IMG/VR virus record: IMGVR_UViG_3300025652_000619
Coordinates: 1 to 22,362 of that record
Strand: one strand, 5' to 3'
From: a virus
Length of the DNA: 22,362 nt
Every line of letters starts with the position of its first letter. Position 1 is the stretch's first letter. Positions 1-8,711 of this stretch are shown here, piece by piece. The notes below the pieces were generated by a model. That model was not told where the DNA came from. It did not search any database and saw nothing but the letters and a program-made list of their open reading frames with translations. Both the position numbers and the translations under genes were made by a program.

Positions 1-75
1 CCATATGATAGATGTGTGTGTATGGAGGAAGTTACCTAATCCATCTATAACTAATAAGATGTAAGATATGAATTG

Positions 76-147
76 ACCCCACCCCTCTATAAAATTGCAT
101 TGGCTCTTGCCTTGCTGCAGCCAATGAATTTTCTAGAGAGGTAGGGT
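76..147 (+). repeat. Long imperfect inverted repeat over a ribosome binding site
   Basis: Left arm 76-105 pairs with right arm 119-147 around a 13-nt loop (106-118). Positions 98-105 and 119-126 pair perfectly. The stem continues as an A/T run and then a C/G-rich base, giving about 26 pairs with three mismatches and one bulged G. The right arm contains the purine-rich AGAGAGG/AGGG stretch just ahead of the ATG at 151, so the folded RNA would hide that ribosome binding site. It lacks a T-run, so it does not look like an intrinsic terminator. An RNase III-type processing site is an alternative reading. The pairing is seen directly; the regulatory role is inference. Confidence 0.75.
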
Positions 148-150
148 ACA

Positions 151-267
151 ATGAGTAATGAATGGATGATAATAACAATAGGAATATCGTGTGTATTAGC
201 AGCTACTACTATACTGATACTTGTTATGACTGTAATAGAGGCACTATCCTTTGCAACTATTCTATGA
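151..267 (+). CDS. Small predicted single-span membrane protein (38 aa)
   Basis: The ORF starts MSNEWMII and runs almost at once into a hydrophobic stretch of about 30 residues (Ile, Leu, Val, Ala, Thr), which is long enough for one membrane span. It has no charged residues after Glu4 until Glu30. The purine-rich RBS at about 136-146 supports the ATG at 151, and that RBS is buried in the 76-147 hairpin. Its end overlaps the next ORF by 17 nt. I do not recognise a family. Tiny membrane peptides near phage early regions can be host-takeover or holin-like, but nothing here decides that. Confidence 0.5.
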   Translation: MSNEWMIITIGISCVLAATTILILVMTVIEALSFATIL

Positions 268-361
268 CGCTCTGACAGTAGCTGTAGTACTGACTGCTGT
301 ACTGGTAGCTCTTGGTGTAATAAAAATGCTTATATGCGATCTGATGGACTATCTGAGGTGA
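251..361 (+). CDS. Small predicted membrane protein (36 aa, TTG start)
   Basis: This is an open frame with a TTG start at 251, preceded by GAGG at 238-241 with an 8-nt spacing. The product has a hydrophobic core (LTVAVVLTAVLVALGVI) and an acidic-polar tail ending DYLR. It overlaps the end of the 38-aa ORF by 17 nt, and its TGA shares one base with the ATG of the next ORF (TGATG at 359-363). The well-placed RBS and tight packing argue for a real gene; the non-ATG start and small size argue against. No family is recognised. Confidence 0.4.
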   Translation: MQLFYDALTVAVVLTAVLVALGVIKMLICDLMDYLR

Positions 362-453
362 TGAATCGCTGTACGCGATGTCACTATATCAAAAGATTAA
401 AAACAAAACTTTTGAAAAAGTTTTACAAAACACAGTCTGGAGTTAAGAAATGA
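361..453 (+). CDS. Small basic peptide with a CxxC motif (30 aa)
   Basis: The ORF begins MNRCTRCHY, giving C4-x2-C7-H8, and is followed by a lysine-rich tail (KRLKTKLLKKFYK). Its start overlaps the previous stop (TGATG), and its stop overlaps the next start by ATGA at 450-453, the typical signature of translational coupling. The GAGG at 355-358 is only 2 nt from the start, so initiation probably depends on reinitiation. The CxxCH could bind metal or nucleic acid, but one CxxC is not enough to call a zinc finger. Function unknown. Confidence 0.45.
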   Translation: MNRCTRCHYIKRLKTKLLKKFYKTQSGVKK

Positions 454-785
454 AGATAATTTATACAGTATATGAAAATGATTGGCCAGAGCATAACGAA
501 ACCATAAAAGAAGTATTGGAGTATGAAAATAGAATACTGTTAAAAAAACAAAGAGAAAGAGATATAGTCTCTGATCTCTGTTTCAGAAATAATTGGAAAA
601 ACTGCGAGACAGTATTCGAGATACTTGAAGCGTTCCCACTGTGCCCAACATACGAAGATGAGGCTAACAGCCTACGTATAAATTTCGTTAAAGAGTGGGT
701 ATTAGAACACCACAGAGAAGACGTCATTGTAGTCGAAGATGAATATAGTCAGCATGAATCGCTAATTGTAAAAACATACCAATAG
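450..785 (+). CDS. Hypothetical protein (111 aa)
   Basis: This is the first full-sized gene of the left region. The start at 450 is supported by GGAG at about 440 with roughly 7 nt spacing and by the ATGA overlap with the preceding 30-aa ORF. The product is mixed charge, rich in Glu and aromatic residues, with no signal peptide or membrane span. Cysteines occur at C44, C52 and C65 but not in paired metal-binding spacing. I do not recognise the family. Its position in a chain of small coupled ORFs ahead of the replication block fits an early host-interaction gene, but that is inference from context only. Confidence 0.7.
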   Translation: MKIIYTVYENDWPEHNETIKEVLEYENRILLKKQRERDIVSDLCFRNNWKNCETVFEILEAFPLCPTYEDEANSLRINFVKEWVLEHHREDVIVVEDEYSQHESLIVKTYQ

Positions 786-896
786 GTGATACTGTAAACA
801 CACTGCGCGTGGTTGATGATTCTAGGGTATATCTATACGATGAGCAATAAGCAGACTAACCTTGACTGCGCTTCGCTCATACGCTGTATCCATATG

Positions 897-909
897 GGGA
901 ACACACCTC
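897..909 (+). repeat. Leader-like direct repeat GGGAACACACCTC, copy 1
   Basis: The same 13 bases occur at 2169-2181, directly at the predicted start of the SP6-like promoter. Here the upstream bases (CCATATG at 890-896) match that promoter poorly, so this copy may be a degenerate or variant promoter, or a shared 5' leader element. CCATATGGG also occurs at 1910-1918. Confidence 0.5.
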
Positions 910-944
910 CTTACCTACCTATGTAAGTTTTGCAAGGGGGTGGT

Positions 945-983
945 TGTGGATAAATATGTGGATAAGTATTAAAGTTATCCACA
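945..983. promoter_or_regulatory. Cluster of three perfect DnaA boxes; candidate origin or DnaA-regulated site
   Basis: TGTGGATAA occurs at 945-953 and again at 957-965, and its reverse complement TTATCCACA at 975-983. All three match the strong E. coli-type DnaA box (TTATCCACA) at 9 of 9 bases. The first two are 12 bp apart in the same orientation. The second and third form a 9-bp-arm inverted repeat with a 9-bp spacer. An A/T-rich segment follows. Known bacterial origins combine clustered boxes with an A/T-rich unwinding region; that this phage uses the site as an origin is inference. Regulation of the adjacent promoter, or DnaA titration, are alternatives. Confidence 0.7.
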
Positions 984-1014
984 GGATTTCCCTAAAATTA
1001 ACCAGACTTATCCC

Positions 1015-1042
1015 ATGACAAAGCAGCCAGAATCATTATAAT
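1015..1042 (+). promoter_or_regulatory. Sigma70-type promoter
   Basis: A -35 box ATGACA at 1015-1020 (5 of 6 matches to TTGACA) and a -10 box TATAAT at 1037-1042 (6 of 6) are separated by 16 nt. Predicted transcription starts near 1049-1050 and would read the genes at 1088 and 1309. The nearest DnaA box ends about 31 nt upstream of the -35 box, so DnaA could influence this promoter. Confidence 0.6.
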
Positions 1043-1087
1043 TACAATCAAGGAAACGATAAATAAACCACCAAAAAAGGTTGACAA

Positions 1088-1294
1088 ATGGAACTATATT
1101 ACACTAAACAAAGGCAGGGAAGACTGGCATTTCGTAACGCAGTGCGGGTACATGTTGATAACTTCACAGCAGTGAAACGCATTGTATCAGATAAACAACT
1201 GAGCGATATTGATACATTAACCATCGCTTACAATCGCTGGCCTACGCCAGCAAACCTTGAAAAACTGCAGCAATATAAACTTAACCTAGTATAA
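1088..1294 (+). CDS. Hypothetical protein (68 aa)
   Basis: This is a small, mildly basic soluble protein (starts MELYYTKQRQ) with no membrane span and no cysteines. The start is supported by AAGG at about 1077-1080, 7 nt before the ATG, and by the sigma70 promoter at 1015-1042. It is followed after 14 nt by the next gene, so the two probably share a transcript. The family is not recognised. It could be an early DNA-binding or host-interaction protein, but no motif shows this. Confidence 0.6.
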   Translation: MELYYTKQRQGRLAFRNAVRVHVDNFTAVKRIVSDKQLSDIDTLTIAYNRWPTPANLEKLQQYKLNLV

Positions 1295-1308
1295 ACTGGA
1301 GATATAAA

Positions 1309-1671
1309 ATGACTACATTATTAAACATTGATTTCACATCGCTTGGCTTAGACGTAGAAAAAGAGATCCAAATGCTGGGCAATGGGCTGGCGCGCTCTTG
1401 CAACGCTCTCGCAGAAAGCAGCAAGAACAACCACGATAAACACCAGATGGCACTGCAAGACGAAATGCAAAAGGGAGATGATGCAGATTTATCAGCAGCA
1501 TCACACAGCGCAAACAAAGCGTCATATTTTGAAGGGCAGCAGCTCAAATGGGTGAAAATGCGACAGCTAATTGAGGCGGAAGGTTACAGCGATACAAACG
1601 TAAAAGCCTTCCCGCCTAAACTCACACGCGAGCAACTCGAGGAGCTAGCCAACGCTCGAAGTAAAAAATAA
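1309..1671 (+). CDS. Hypothetical protein (120 aa)
   Basis: This is a soluble, largely helical-looking protein rich in Ala, Gln, Lys and Glu. The middle (about 35-75) has the polar composition of a helix or coiled coil, and the C-terminus is basic (ARSKK). GGAG about 6-7 nt before the ATG supports the start. Base composition is visibly richer in G+C than its neighbours, which may mark separate ancestry. It is the last gene before the 520-bp control region and its terminator. Function unknown. Confidence 0.7.
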   Translation: MTTLLNIDFTSLGLDVEKEIQMLGNGLARSCNALAESSKNNHDKHQMALQDEMQKGDDADLSAASHSANKASYFEGQQLKWVKMRQLIEAEGYSDTNVKAFPPKLTREQLEELANARSKK

Positions 1672-1729
1672 ATTGACCCACCTGAACAAGTGGTAAAACT
1701 GTTCACTTTATATACAAAAAAAAAATTTT

Positions 1730-1846
1730 CTCGCTTCGCTCGATCAAAGGAGTTCGCTATCGCTCACCATAATTGGCTCGCTTCGCTCGCAACAACATAA
1801 TGTGTTCGCTGCGCTCACCATAAAAAAAATCAACTCGCTTCGCTCG
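1730..1846. repeat. Alternating A-B-A-B-A repeat array
   Basis: Element A, CTCGCTTCGCTCG, is identical at 1730-1742, 1777-1789 and 1834-1846. Element B, TTCGCT(n)CGCTCACCATAA-like, starts at 1753 and 1805. Starts are spaced 23, 24, 28 and 29 bp. The arrangement looks like a unit of about 47-57 bp duplicated in tandem with divergent spacers. A further relative lies at 868-879. On the other strand each element carries the tandem AGCGA-AGCGA pattern. Such motifs recur in non-coding DNA of many phages and bacteria; iteron-like protein binding is inference. Confidence 0.75.
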
Positions 1847-1909
1847 TGGCTGTAGTACATAGAGAGCCAGAACGCCAACCCACGCTGCTCGCTCGCGCTG
1901 ATGTACATA

Positions 1910-1935
1910 CCATATGGGAAACATAGCCCAAATGG
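1910..1935. repeat. Short inverted repeat
   Basis: CCATATGGG (1910-1918) faces CCCAAATGG (1927-1935) across 8 nt, with one mismatch in the 9-bp arms. CCATATG also occurs at 1-7 and 890-896. It may be an operator or a degenerate promoter/leader copy. Role unknown. Confidence 0.4.
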
Positions 1936-2023
1936 GATATACAACCACCGCGCGGGGGGATACTATGGACATCAAGTCTGGCTTAAAATTGATTTCAACT
2001 AAAAAATATAAAGTCAGGTTACA

Positions 2024-2079
2024 AAAAAATAATGCAACGCCTCTGCCTTCTGCGAAGGCGTTGATTATTTTTTCTTCTT
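2024..2079 (+). terminator. Strong intrinsic terminator, possibly bidirectional
   Basis: CAACGCCT (2035-2042) pairs perfectly with AGGCGTTG (2056-2063) and is followed by ATTATTTTTTCTTCTT. Upstream, the A-rich run 2024-2033 pairs with the T-rich run 2064-2073 if G2034 is bulged, so the stem can extend to about 18 pairs and works from either direction. A competing hairpin GCCTTC(TGC)GAAGGC at 2045-2059 uses part of the same 3' arm. It would separate the 1088-1671 transcript from the downstream block. Confidence 0.85.
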
Positions 2080-2116
2080 GTATATAAAAATATAATTAAA
2101 TATCTTTACATTTACT

Positions 2117-2148
2117 TATACATGTGATACATATACCCCACATGTATA
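2117..2148. promoter_or_regulatory. Perfect 10-bp palindrome, candidate operator
   Basis: TATACATGTG (2117-2126) and CACATGTATA (2139-2148) are exact reverse complements separated by 12 nt. The element lies between the terminator and the SP6-like promoter. A weak sigma70-like pair (TTTACA 2105-2110, TACATA 2128-2133, 17-nt spacer) overlaps it, which would fit an operator controlling transcription of the large downstream block. Binding protein unknown. Confidence 0.5.
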
Positions 2149-2153
2149 TTCCA

Positions 2154-2170
2154 TTAGGTAATACTATAGG
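2154..2170 (+). promoter_or_regulatory. SP6/T7-type phage RNA polymerase promoter
   Basis: TTAGGTAATACTATAG (2154-2169) matches the SP6 promoter core TTAGGTGACACTATAG at 14 of 16 positions. The initiating G would be 2169, giving a GGGAACACACCTC leader. The RNA reaches AAGGAG (2183-2188) and an ATG at 2195; the AAGGAGATATA segment is the same as in the T7 gene 10 leader. A single-subunit RNA polymerase gene would be expected outside this window. Confidence 0.65.
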
Positions 2171-2194
2171 GAACACACCTCTAAGGAGATATAT

Positions 2195-2395
2195 ATGACA
2201 CCAATAAATAAACTAACTAAATTGTCTCACGATTGGACTGTCTACTTATCAAGTATGGAAAATAAACTAACGCTTACTCCATCTGTTACTCAGATTATCC
2301 ATGACTACATACAGCTTGCTGAAGAAGAAAACAACCATCTTCTGCACCAGTATGAAGGGACTCAGGATTATCAAGATGAGATGTACTATTTGTAA
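2195..2395 (+). CDS. Hypothetical protein (66 aa), first gene of the main operon
   Basis: The ATG at 2195 has an excellent RBS (AAGGAG at 2183-2188, 6-nt spacing) directly downstream of the SP6-like promoter, so it should be highly translated. The product is small and polar, with a Glu-rich run (AEEEN) and an acidic, tyrosine-rich tail (DYQDEMYYL). There is no membrane span. Its last 20 nt overlap the next gene. The family is not recognised. Placement at the head of the replication block suggests a regulatory or host-shutoff role, which is inference. Confidence 0.65.
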   Translation: MTPINKLTKLSHDWTVYLSSMENKLTLTPSVTQIIHDYIQLAEEENNHLLHQYEGTQDYQDEMYYL

Positions 2396-2543
2396 TACTC
2401 TTTTAACTGACCAAGAAACAAGTAGAAAATATAACGACACTCACCCATTGAGTGGAGAATACTTAGATACTTGTACTCAGTGCCTTATATCTATTATAGA
2501 TATTGAACCTACACTACATATAGAGGACTTAGATGACGAGTGA
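2376..2543 (+). CDS. Small zinc-ribbon-like protein (55 aa)
   Basis: The chosen ATG at 2376 (MRCTICNT) has AGGA at 2364-2367 with 8-nt spacing; longer in-frame starts lie further inside the previous gene and have no RBS. The protein carries two CxxC pairs, CTIC near residues 3-6 and CTQC near residues 33-36, a typical four-cysteine zinc-binding arrangement. It ends with an acidic tail (EDLDDE). It overlaps neighbours on both sides. Such knuckle proteins often bind nucleic acid or RNA polymerase, but the family is not recognised. Confidence 0.6.
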   Translation: MRCTICNTLLTDQETSRKYNDTHPLSGEYLDTCTQCLISIIDIEPTLHIEDLDDE

Positions 2544-2730
2544 TAACAGAGAAGCCTATATAAGAATAGCTAACATGCTTGCTAATTGGGCATTAGACTT
2601 TGATAAGACTACTCAAGACGCTATAGATTATATGGATCGAGTAATTATCTTAGACGAATTAACTCGCAGTGCTATGGTAAATGTAATTACCAATGACATT
2701 GACAAAGTGAGGAAACTAAATGAACGATGA
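2533..2730 (+). CDS. Hypothetical protein (65 aa)
   Basis: The start is supported by GAGGA at about 2523-2527 and an 11-nt overlap with the preceding gene; its end overlaps the next gene by 11 nt. The product is soluble, helical-looking and acidic in the middle, with a basic C-terminus (KVRKLNER). No cysteines or membrane segments. It belongs to a run of compact, overlapping small genes between the main promoter and the ArdC gene. Family not recognised. Confidence 0.6.
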   Translation: MTSDNREAYIRIANMLANWALDFDKTTQDAIDYMDRVIILDELTRSAMVNVITNDIDKVRKLNER

Positions 2731-2971
2731 GAATGAAGTAACAAACCCAGAGTATTATCGTAAGTGGAATATAGAACCTGCTGTATATATCATGGCAAAT
2801 AACCTTGAGTTTTGGCGTGGTAATATAATCAAGTACGCTAGTCGTGCTGGCTATAAACTTTATGAAGGTAATGATTACTTCCAGAGTGAAATAAAAGATT
2901 TAAGAAAACTTATTGAATATGCAGAGATGCGTATTGATCAATTAGGGTTTGCTGATAACGATGGTAAGTAA
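2720..2971 (+). CDS. DUF3310 family protein (T7 gp1.7-like region)
   Basis: The protein (83 aa) shows the DUF3310 pattern: an early NPEYY (NHP-x-HY-like), a central NIIKYASRAG matching the family's N-x-IKY-x-x-RAG signature (about residues 35-44), and a following helix DLRKLIEYAEMRI resembling the family's DLxKAxxYLxRxI. T7 gp1.7, which carries this domain, is a nucleotide kinase acting on dGMP and dTMP; whether this shorter protein has that activity is not shown. The RBS GAGG about 7 nt upstream supports the start. Neighbouring dNTP and replication genes fit a nucleotide-metabolism role. Confidence 0.7.
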   Translation: MNDENEVTNPEYYRKWNIEPAVYIMANNLEFWRGNIIKYASRAGYKLYEGNDYFQSEIKDLRKLIEYAEMRIDQLGFADNDGK

Positions 2972-3194
2972 GTGGACTCCAAGATACTGGGCTAAGGTAA
3001 AAATGTCAGACACACATACCTTAACTATTGAAGATAAGTTTCATAACACAACAGAGGTAATGAATAACATACGTGAATTGTTGTCACCATTAGTAGACCA
3101 TTGGTGTATAACTATTATGCGTGGTAACGTAGTGCATACTGTAAGGTATGTATCAGATAATGAACTTTTAAAAGCAAAGGATTATTATGAATGA
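2961..3194 (+). CDS. Hypothetical protein (77 aa)
   Basis: I chose the ATG at 2961 (MVSKWTPRYW); an in-frame TTG at 2949 is possible but lies almost on top of the AGGG at 2944-2947. The product is soluble, with alternating beta-like segments (HTLTIEDKF, WCITIMRG, VVHTVRYV) and a short helical end. It overlaps the DUF3310 gene by 11 nt and the next gene by 8 nt. No known family is recognised. The start is less certain than the frame. Confidence 0.55.
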   Translation: MVSKWTPRYWAKVKMSDTHTLTIEDKFHNTTEVMNNIRELLSPLVDHWCITIMRGNVVHTVRYVSDNELLKAKDYYE

Positions 3195-3345
3195 CTATGG
3201 TGATGAGGTTGAGTTTGATGCGCTCGATGAACAAGCTAAAGATGAGTACCATCTACATTGGTGCTTAGAGGAAGCTAAAGAGTATATCGAAAAGTATGGC
3301 ATGGATAAATTCTTACACGAACTTAGAGTGAGGTTAGAGCAATGA
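3187..3345 (+). CDS. Small acidic hypothetical protein (52 aa)
   Basis: The frame begins MNDYGDEVEF and ends RVRLEQ. It is strongly acidic in the first half, with one helix-like segment (LEEAKEYIEKYGMDKFL). AAAGGA ending 5 nt before the ATG at 3187 supports the start. It overlaps the previous gene and overlaps the ArdC start by ATGA (3342-3345), a coupling signature. It may be an acidic modulator of the following protein, but this is only context. Family not recognised. Confidence 0.6.
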   Translation: MNDYGDEVEFDALDEQAKDEYHLHWCLEEAKEYIEKYGMDKFLHELRVRLEQ

Positions 3346-4214
3346 AATTTGCAGACTTTAAAAGTAAAGTGAATAAAGAAATCCTAAACTTAATGGAGGA
3401 ACATGATTCAAATTGGATTCAACCTTACTGCGAGAAGATTGCAAGGTTTGGTAATCCACACAATGCAATCAAAGGTAACACCTACAGTGGTATGAATAAG
3501 TTTTACCTATCATGTTTGGCTGACTACGAGCGACCTATGTATGCTACATACAAACAGTGGACAAGCATTGGTGGTGATATGTCAAACACTAAAGGTAAGG
3601 GACTACCAGTAATCTACTTCAACTCGTCAATCAAGAAAGAGAAAAATGCTAAGGGCGAAGAAAAGACAAGGAGTGTAGGCTTTTATAGAGTATATTACGT
3701 ATTCAATATCGCTGACGTTGGTAATGTAGACGAGAGTAAGCTTGCTTCAACTAAGGCTAAGGCTACTATGCAAGACATAGAGCCTGATGAAAAATGTGAG
3801 TCTATTATAAAAGCTACTAACGCTGGCATTGTGTTCAATCAAGAACGTGTGCCTTGCTATATACCATCTAAAGATATAATTAGTATGCCAGATAGAAAGG
3901 CTTTCTATAGCTCTACTGATTACTATTCTACTATGTTTCATGAGCTTACTCATTGGACAGGCCACAAGTCTAGGCTAAATAGAATTGTAATGAAGGAACG
4001 TACCAAGAAAGACTACGCCTTTGAAGAACTAGTAGCAGAGATTGGATCTGCTCACCTATGTGTTGCATCTGGTATTGAAAAGAAACCTAGAGAAGATCAT
4101 GCCAAGTACCTAAATTCTTGGGTGACTTATCTCAAAGAAGATGATAACATTATGGTCAAAGCTTTCAGCAAGGCTAGTAAAGCAACTGATTTTATTCTTA
4201 ACACAGGAGAGTAA
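3342..4214 (+). CDS. ArdC-like antirestriction protein (ssDNA-binding plus zincin protease-like domain)
   Basis: The protein (290 aa) has the two-part ArdC architecture. The N-terminal half contains GNTYSGMN (about 45-52), typical of the ArdC ssDNA-binding domain. The C-terminal half contains the metallopeptidase motif FHELTHWTGH, with zinc ligands H200 and H204, catalytic E201, and a downstream FEELVAEIGSA segment (227-237) that supplies the third ligand. Plasmid ArdC protects incoming single-stranded DNA from host nucleases and restriction; here the protein could be injected or made early. The start is coupled to the preceding gene by ATGA, and GAGG lies upstream. Its place just before the primase links it to DNA entry or replication. 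Family assignment is strong; phage function is inference. Confidence 0.88.
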   Translation: MKFADFKSKVNKEILNLMEEHDSNWIQPYCEKIARFGNPHNAIKGNTYSGMNKFYLSCLADYERPMYATYKQWTSIGGDMSNTKGKGLPVIYFNSSIKKEKNAKGEEKTRSVGFYRVYYVFNIADVGNVDESKLASTKAKATMQDIEPDEKCESIIKATNAGIVFNQERVPCYIPSKDIISMPDRKAFYSSTDYYSTMFHELTHWTGHKSRLNRIVMKERTKKDYAFEELVAEIGSAHLCVASGIEKKPREDHAKYLNSWVTYLKEDDNIMVKAFSKASKATDFILNTGE

Positions 4215-8069: not shown

Positions 8070-8711
8070 ATGGCTTTAAATCGTAAATCACCAGTAGCAA
8101 CTACCAACTCTAATGTTGAGTACTCTAACTTAACTGAAGGTGAGCATGAGGGTCGTCTAGTTTATGTAGGTGATCTTGGTTTACAAGAACGCAGCTACAT
8201 GGGTGACGAGAAACCACCAGCTCAACAACTTTCATTAGGTATTGAAATCATTGGAGAGAAAGTAACCATTGATGGTAAGGAACAACCACGACTAATGTGG
8301 ACTAAGCCTTTCAATATCTTTTATCAAATGAATGAGTTAGGTAATGAGTACAAGTATTACAAGGTATTTAAACCTACTGCACAAGAAGGCCAAGTGGCTG
8401 ACTGGGATAGCGTACTGGGTTTACCATGTAATGTTATCGTCAAACACCAAGCTGGCAAAGAAGGCAGAGTGTATGACAACATTGATAGTATTGCCCCAAT
8501 CCCATCTAAGTATCAAGATGTAGTAGGAGAAGCAACTATCACTGCTATGGCAGTAGGTGACGCTGATGATGAAAACAATGTAGCTACCAAAGCATTGTTT
8601 GGCCTAGCTAAGTATGTGTTTGATAAGCGCATTACTGGTGACACAGCTAAGGTAACACCTATCACAGCAGCAACTACATCAGAAGATTTCTCTGACGACA
8701 TTCCTTTCTAG
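8070..8711 (+). CDS. Single-stranded DNA-binding protein
   Basis: This 213-aa protein fills the gp2.5 position between polymerase and exonuclease. The body has an OB-like beta-rich composition with aromatic segments such as YVGDLGLQERSY and PFNIFYQ, a pattern seen in phage SSBs. The C-terminus is disordered-looking and ends SEDFSDDIPF. The last five residues, DDIPF, equal the tip of bacterial SSB, which recruits host repair and replication proteins; T7 gp2.5 ends differently, in an acidic tail with a terminal Phe. It has its own sigma70 promoter and an AAGGAG RBS about 8 nt before the ATG. SSB by position and tail is well supported; the exact fold is inferred. Confidence 0.85.
   Translation: MALNRKSPVATTNSNVEYSNLTEGEHEGRLVYVGDLGLQERSYMGDEKPPAQQLSLGIEIIGEKVTIDGKEQPRLMWTKPFNIFYQMNELGNEYKYYKVFKPTAQEGQVADWDSVLGLPCNVIVKHQAGKEGRVYDNIDSIAPIPSKYQDVVGEATITAMAVGDADDENNVATKALFGLAKYVFDKRITGDTAKVTPITAATTSEDFSDDIPF

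Follow-up and report, generated by a model that had tools for sequence, protein, structure and literature searches.

A conserved cluster of DnaA boxes ahead of a predicted early promoter in a T7-supergroup, Zobellviridae-like phage

The window analyzed here (the whole stretch of 22,362 nucleotides) is a 22-kb virus record from a marine phage, IMGVR_UViG_3300025652_000619 in IMG/VR, whose replication genes encode a primase-helicase, a family A polymerase, a 5'-3' exonuclease, and a T7-type endonuclease I. The initial annotation had called this phage T7-like. The description stands for the replication genes, which belong to the T7 supergroup, but it does not extend further: a search of the window and six related contigs, all incomplete fragments, turned up no T7-type RNA polymerase, with clear matches in the positive controls A7, phiEap-1, and ZK1, and many Zobellviridae are among the isolates with the nearest DNA polymerases. 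The same search in three Zobellviridae gave no match. The single-subunit RNA polymerase with its own promoters that marks the T7 primary origin was not seen in the fragments at hand, and the phage shares with Zobellviridae the T7-supergroup replication genes, the two opposed gene arms, and the lack of a detected RNA polymerase. Judged from its sequence, it is a T7-supergroup, Zobellviridae-like phage; a family rank is withheld, as its structural proteins were matched only distantly. A 213-aa protein (window 8070-8711) scored below threshold against NCBIfam NF046043, the phage replication initiation protein NGO0469 family (66.5 bits vs. a cut-off of 75).

The rightward arm of replication genes opens with a compact DnaA-box cluster, after which come a promoter-like sequence and two small ORFs. 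Two further IMG/VR contigs, L005 and L006, span the same place and are used for comparison in the feature list below.

945 to 953, minus strand: DnaA box 1, an exact TTATCCACA; 9/9 positions invariant in the window, L005, and L006.
957 to 965, minus strand: DnaA box 2, an exact TTATCCACA; 9/9 invariant; forms a same-strand double DnaA box with box 1 across a 3-bp gap.
966 to 974, no strand: 9-nt spacer of the inverted repeat, itself inverted relative to L005 and L006.
975 to 983, plus strand: DnaA box 3, an exact TTATCCACA, inverted relative to box 2; 8/9 invariant, reading TTATGCACA in L006.
984 to 1014, plus strand: decayed remnant of an array of weak boxes spaced 11-12 bp, recognized by alignment with L005 and L006; ~12 bp shorter in the window.
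1015 to 1042, plus strand: predicted sigma-70-type promoter, ATGACA-N16-TATAAT; the best promoter-like match in 1-3400, with hexamers conserved in the three sequences.
1043 to 1087, plus strand: conserved A/T-rich leader, 39/45 positions invariant.
1088 to 1294, plus strand: first downstream ORF, 68 aa, conserved in L005 (91%) and L006 (93%).
1309 to 1671, plus strand: second downstream ORF, 120 aa, with relatives in L005 and L006 only.

A match search of the window confirmed the claim that three exact DnaA boxes lie within 39 bp and that two of them, boxes 2 and 3, make up an inverted repeat (27 bp, with 9 nt between the exact arms); boxes 1 and 3 form a further exact arm pair with 21 nt between. 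Boxes 1 and 2 have the geometry of a double DnaA box, i.e., two boxes on the same strand 2-3 bp apart, with 0 mismatches, and in the double-box search a pair with up to two mismatches arose in 0 of 30 shuffles. In E. coli, DnaA binds in vivo mainly to box pairs spaced 2-3 bp (PMC11317965), and the double boxes at purH, polA, and DARS2 described there are likewise same-strand pairs with a 3-bp gap, although the pair in the window is in phage DNA, has both boxes exact, and is joined by a third, inverted box. The A/T-rich neighborhood noted earlier is present, at 75% A/T in both 950-989 and 1030-1069, but the richness is modest, falling to 57% in between. The exact 39-mer does not occur in other IMG/VR contigs, a near-match DNA search of phage records returned one short unrelated match only, and the Rfam and tRNA searches gave no match.

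Might the cluster be an accident of chance or composition, with no function? The total of loose DnaA boxes is indeed close to expectation (6 TTWTNCACA sites in the window vs. 3.4 expected), and what is unusual is their clustering. Among 5,002 sequences simulated with Markov models of order 1 to 3, none had even two exact boxes within 39 bp, and by a Poisson estimate a triple of exact boxes is expected ~1e-8 times per window, which bears out the view that the cluster is improbable by chance. These odds and the conservation among diverged contigs described below make an accident extremely improbable. The one escape from the argument by conservation is recent shared descent of the three contigs, which their diverged flanks oppose.

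A search for the cluster in related phages had been proposed as a check, and it was found to be kept in both contigs. DNA identity to the window is ~92% over the early arm in L005 and ~78% near the site in L006; L005 keeps all three boxes and L006 two. In the three-way alignment, the 3-bp linker between boxes 1 and 2 is as invariant (3/3 columns) as those boxes themselves, but only 4/9 columns are invariant in the spacer and 19/43 between box 3 and the -35 hexamer. The promoter follows the same pattern, with 5/6 invariant columns in the -35 hexamer, 3/16 in its spacer, and 6/6 in the -10 hexamer. Boxes and promoter hexamers kept amid diverged spacers thus read as a good footprint, from three sequences only. 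The window and L005 differ by 5 mismatches over the 39 bp in direct comparison and by 0 once the 9-nt spacer is inverted, and L005 1026-1052, read as its reverse complement, matches window 957-983 exactly; a simple explanation would be template switching at the hairpin. In L005 and L006, weaker boxes continue at 11-12 bp steps from box 3 into the -35 hexamer, and these are no longer recognizable in the window after the loss of ~12 bp.

Several other features of this early region were noted. A long imperfect hairpin at 74-143 (CCCCTCTATAAAATTGCATTGGCT ... AGCCAATGAATTTTCTAGAGAGG), ahead of an ORF for a 38-aa membrane peptide, is conserved in L005 and L006, while ~470 bp within 383-926, including a 111-aa ORF (450-785), are missing from both and look like an inserted cargo gene. 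The sequence GGGAACACACCTC occurs twice (897 and 2169), after CATATG and CTATA, and L005 and L006 share the second of these copies, directly before the ribosome-binding site of the ORF at 2195. A reading of the repeated GGGAACACACC (897, 2169) as a phage promoter was set aside, as the window has just two exact copies and an RNA polymerase was not found. Several TCGCTTCGCTCG-like palindromic repeats lie between early genes at 1725-1860.

A box array also occurs in two more distant relatives, L057 and L059 (~60% helicase identity), at an equivalent place (~3 kb before the helicase vs. 3.56 kb in the window) and built differently from that of the window. L057 has five exact boxes and L059 four, its contig beginning inside the first, with weaker boxes besides. 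Taken together, the rarity of the cluster, its retention in L005 and L006, the 3-bp spacing of the double box, and the independent array in L057 and L059 make it very likely that the host DnaA would bind here. A box cluster is lacking in most of the other relatives, several of which extend 10 kb upstream, and in eight isolate records that are mainly Zobellviridae. Since most relatives lack it, and two of them (L036 and L033) keep a TTGACA-type promoter ahead of the early arm with no boxes there, the DnaA-box cluster is an optional module. Among the leftward genes of L057 is a fatty-acid-desaturase-fold protein (2148-3227, minus strand; PF00487, E 2.8e-28) with AlkB-like histidine motifs, possibly an auxiliary membrane hydroxylase or desaturase.

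As to what DnaA would do at the cluster, the initial annotation had offered three roles (a DnaA-dependent origin, a titration decoy, or a switch for the promoter at 1015). The promoter it named is present and promoter-like, with 11 of 12 hexamer positions matched, and begins 32 bp downstream of box 3. Such a predicted host-type promoter adjoining DnaA boxes, with conserved hexamers and a diverged spacer, has the organization of a DnaA-regulated promoter. The switch is the best supported of the three roles, because the hexamers are conserved and the spacer is not, and because the relatives' box array reaches the -35 hexamer; the origin lacks support from GC skew or a DnaA-trio in this clade. 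We therefore tentatively favor, as quite possible, a host DnaA binding site attached to the phage's first early promoter and controlling it. DnaA would bind the double box cooperatively and form a complex with box 3, whose effect would fall mainly on the promoter at 1015-1042. Occupied distal strong boxes would help the host RNA polymerase to begin early transcription and, in the relatives, excess DnaA-ATP would be able to turn the promoter off again through the weak boxes that reach the -35 hexamer, so that early expression would be tied to the DnaA state of the host; opening of the adjacent A/T-rich DNA may be a side effect. The precedent is E. coli nrdAB, where high-affinity boxes activate and DnaA-ATP represses (PMC8203912). 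With the nrdAB and dnaA promoters of that study, the phage locus shares boxes upstream of a host-type promoter and, in L005 and L006, the combination of strong and weak boxes; it differs in that the genes downstream are phage genes with no assigned function, and the regulation is a prediction.

Further evidence on this reading comes from other viral genomes. In 120 viral contigs with paired boxes among the matches listed, same-strand box spacings peak at 11-13, 20-22, and 29-34, and the exact-box spacings are helically phased (R ~0.7 vs. ~0.05 for a reversed control word, which shows coding periodicity only), the two words being compared on spacing and context and not on counts. Helical phasing, the agreement of the double box with the measured preference of E. 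coli DnaA, and the presence of a differently built array at the corresponding place in L057 and L059 all favor control of the early promoter. Against it, the boxless early promoters of L036 and L033 imply that the promoter does not generally depend on DnaA, the weak boxes closest to the promoter are degenerate in the window, where the interval between box 3 and the -35 hexamer also differs by 12 bp, and the L057 promoter lies ~170-200 bp away from its array. Moreover, the genes that would be controlled have no assigned function: the 68-aa ORF has no match in Pfam, PHROG, NCBIfam, or PADLOC, and neither ORF has relatives beyond L005 and L006.

A DnaA-dependent replication start, in which DnaA and transcription from 1015 would open the A/T-rich leader and the primase-helicase and family A polymerase would load, is a possibility, if a doubtful one. 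With no T7-type RNA polymerase detected, the sequence seen offers no polymerase of the phage's own for a phi1.1 start in the T7 style. The L057 array sits in an ORF-free region between the leftward genes and the rightward early arm, adjoining DNA of 84% A/T, and coincides with the cumulative GC-skew minimum, but the skew there tracks gene direction and is confounded by it. Clusters among the 120 viral contigs are intergenic in 65 (54%) as against 30 of 120 (25%) for the control word, again among the matches listed. The exact three-box spacing of the window recurs in 45 bacterial contigs, many from Firmicutes, and in 8 viral ones, of which five (L203 and L205 to L208) seem to make up a single related group. 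A crude motif search of the fetched bacterial stretches found a DnaA domain-IV-like motif in at least 12 and an L34-like motif in others. These 45 loci, some of them next to dnaA-like motifs, are identical to the window in box order and spacings. In contrast to bacterial oriC, the window has far fewer boxes and no DnaA-trio or clear unwinding element was found in it; L005, L006, and L057 likewise have no DnaA-trio by the boxes. The proposed check by GC skew, made on the window, went against an origin: skew is +0.12 to the left and -0.02 to the right of the cluster with its minimum at 2517, and neither the window nor L005 shows an origin-type change at the cluster. Nor do most relatives with comparable replication genes, or the eight isolate records, carry a cluster at all.

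Replication of the T7 type is the standard example of a system that needs no host initiator, and the initial annotation had stated that T7-like phages normally start without host DnaA. This is too simple. T7 itself has one box, within a gene. When the L057 array was used as a blastn query, it pointed to T7-like isolates whose exact boxes are concentrated at the genome ends, namely Shigella phage A7 (8 of 8 in two end regions, inside the terminal repeats), Klebsiella phage ZK1 (12 of 13 in sequence recurring at both ends), and Enterobacter phage phiEap-1 (10 of 11, likewise). The A7 terminal repeats measure 177 bp (PMC8427288); DnaA is not mentioned in that paper, and no function for the boxes of the three phages was found in the literature searched. 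Like the window, these T7-related phages have exact-box clusters in non-coding DNA; unlike it, their arrays lie in demonstrated or exact end repeats, are mostly direct repeats, and accompany an RNA polymerase of the phage's own.

These arrays suggest another role for the cluster, as a genome-end or DNA-entry element at which host DnaA would hold or mark the incoming end or aid its processing, which we consider distinctly unlikely. The terminal repeats of VpV262 also fall in an ORF-free region between two gene arms, and the proposed injection stop signal of T5 is described, in one sentence of PMC13250531, as containing DnaA boxes. The two sites have in common DnaA boxes with inverted repeats in a virulent phage, near the first-entering DNA, but T5 is unrelated, and no two-step entry is known for the window phage. 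No direct terminal repeat was seen in the window fragment, only a contig start coincident with that of L006 (~8 bp apart); L005 runs through the suspected junction, and the conserved promoter comes after the cluster. In ten relatives (L005:443-510, L057:4036, L026, L028, L029, L033, L036, L049, L054, and L062), the divergent region carries TTTTGTATCTRGG and then a C-rich run, a conserved non-coding landmark that is a candidate packaging or terminus signal. The window lacks this landmark, probably because the window contig begins to the right of it. The landmark was also considered as a possible genome end.

Finally, the cluster could be a decoy that titrates DnaA off the host origin as phage copies accumulate, which is very unlikely. 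Three strong boxes per genome could give hundreds of sites late in infection, as compared with a total of 307 consensus boxes in E. coli (PMC5835720). However, with a T7-type endonuclease I and a 5'-3' exonuclease, the phage probably destroys the host DNA and would gain little from blocking initiation, and the link to a conserved promoter is left unexplained.

The element is of a kind already known, and its use by these phages is a prediction. The open-access papers searched describe neither dependence on host DnaA nor such a cluster in this group, and earlier reports elsewhere are possible. It is conceivable, though on balance unlikely, that sites for host DnaA were repeatedly gained by virulent T7-supergroup phages, at the head of the early arm or in the terminal repeats, and that these phages rely on DnaA as a signal to start their own replication or as a checkpoint on it. 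With conserved DnaA-box modules in the T7 supergroup, including the laboratory-grown Shigella phage A7, the use of a host initiator by these phages becomes directly testable.
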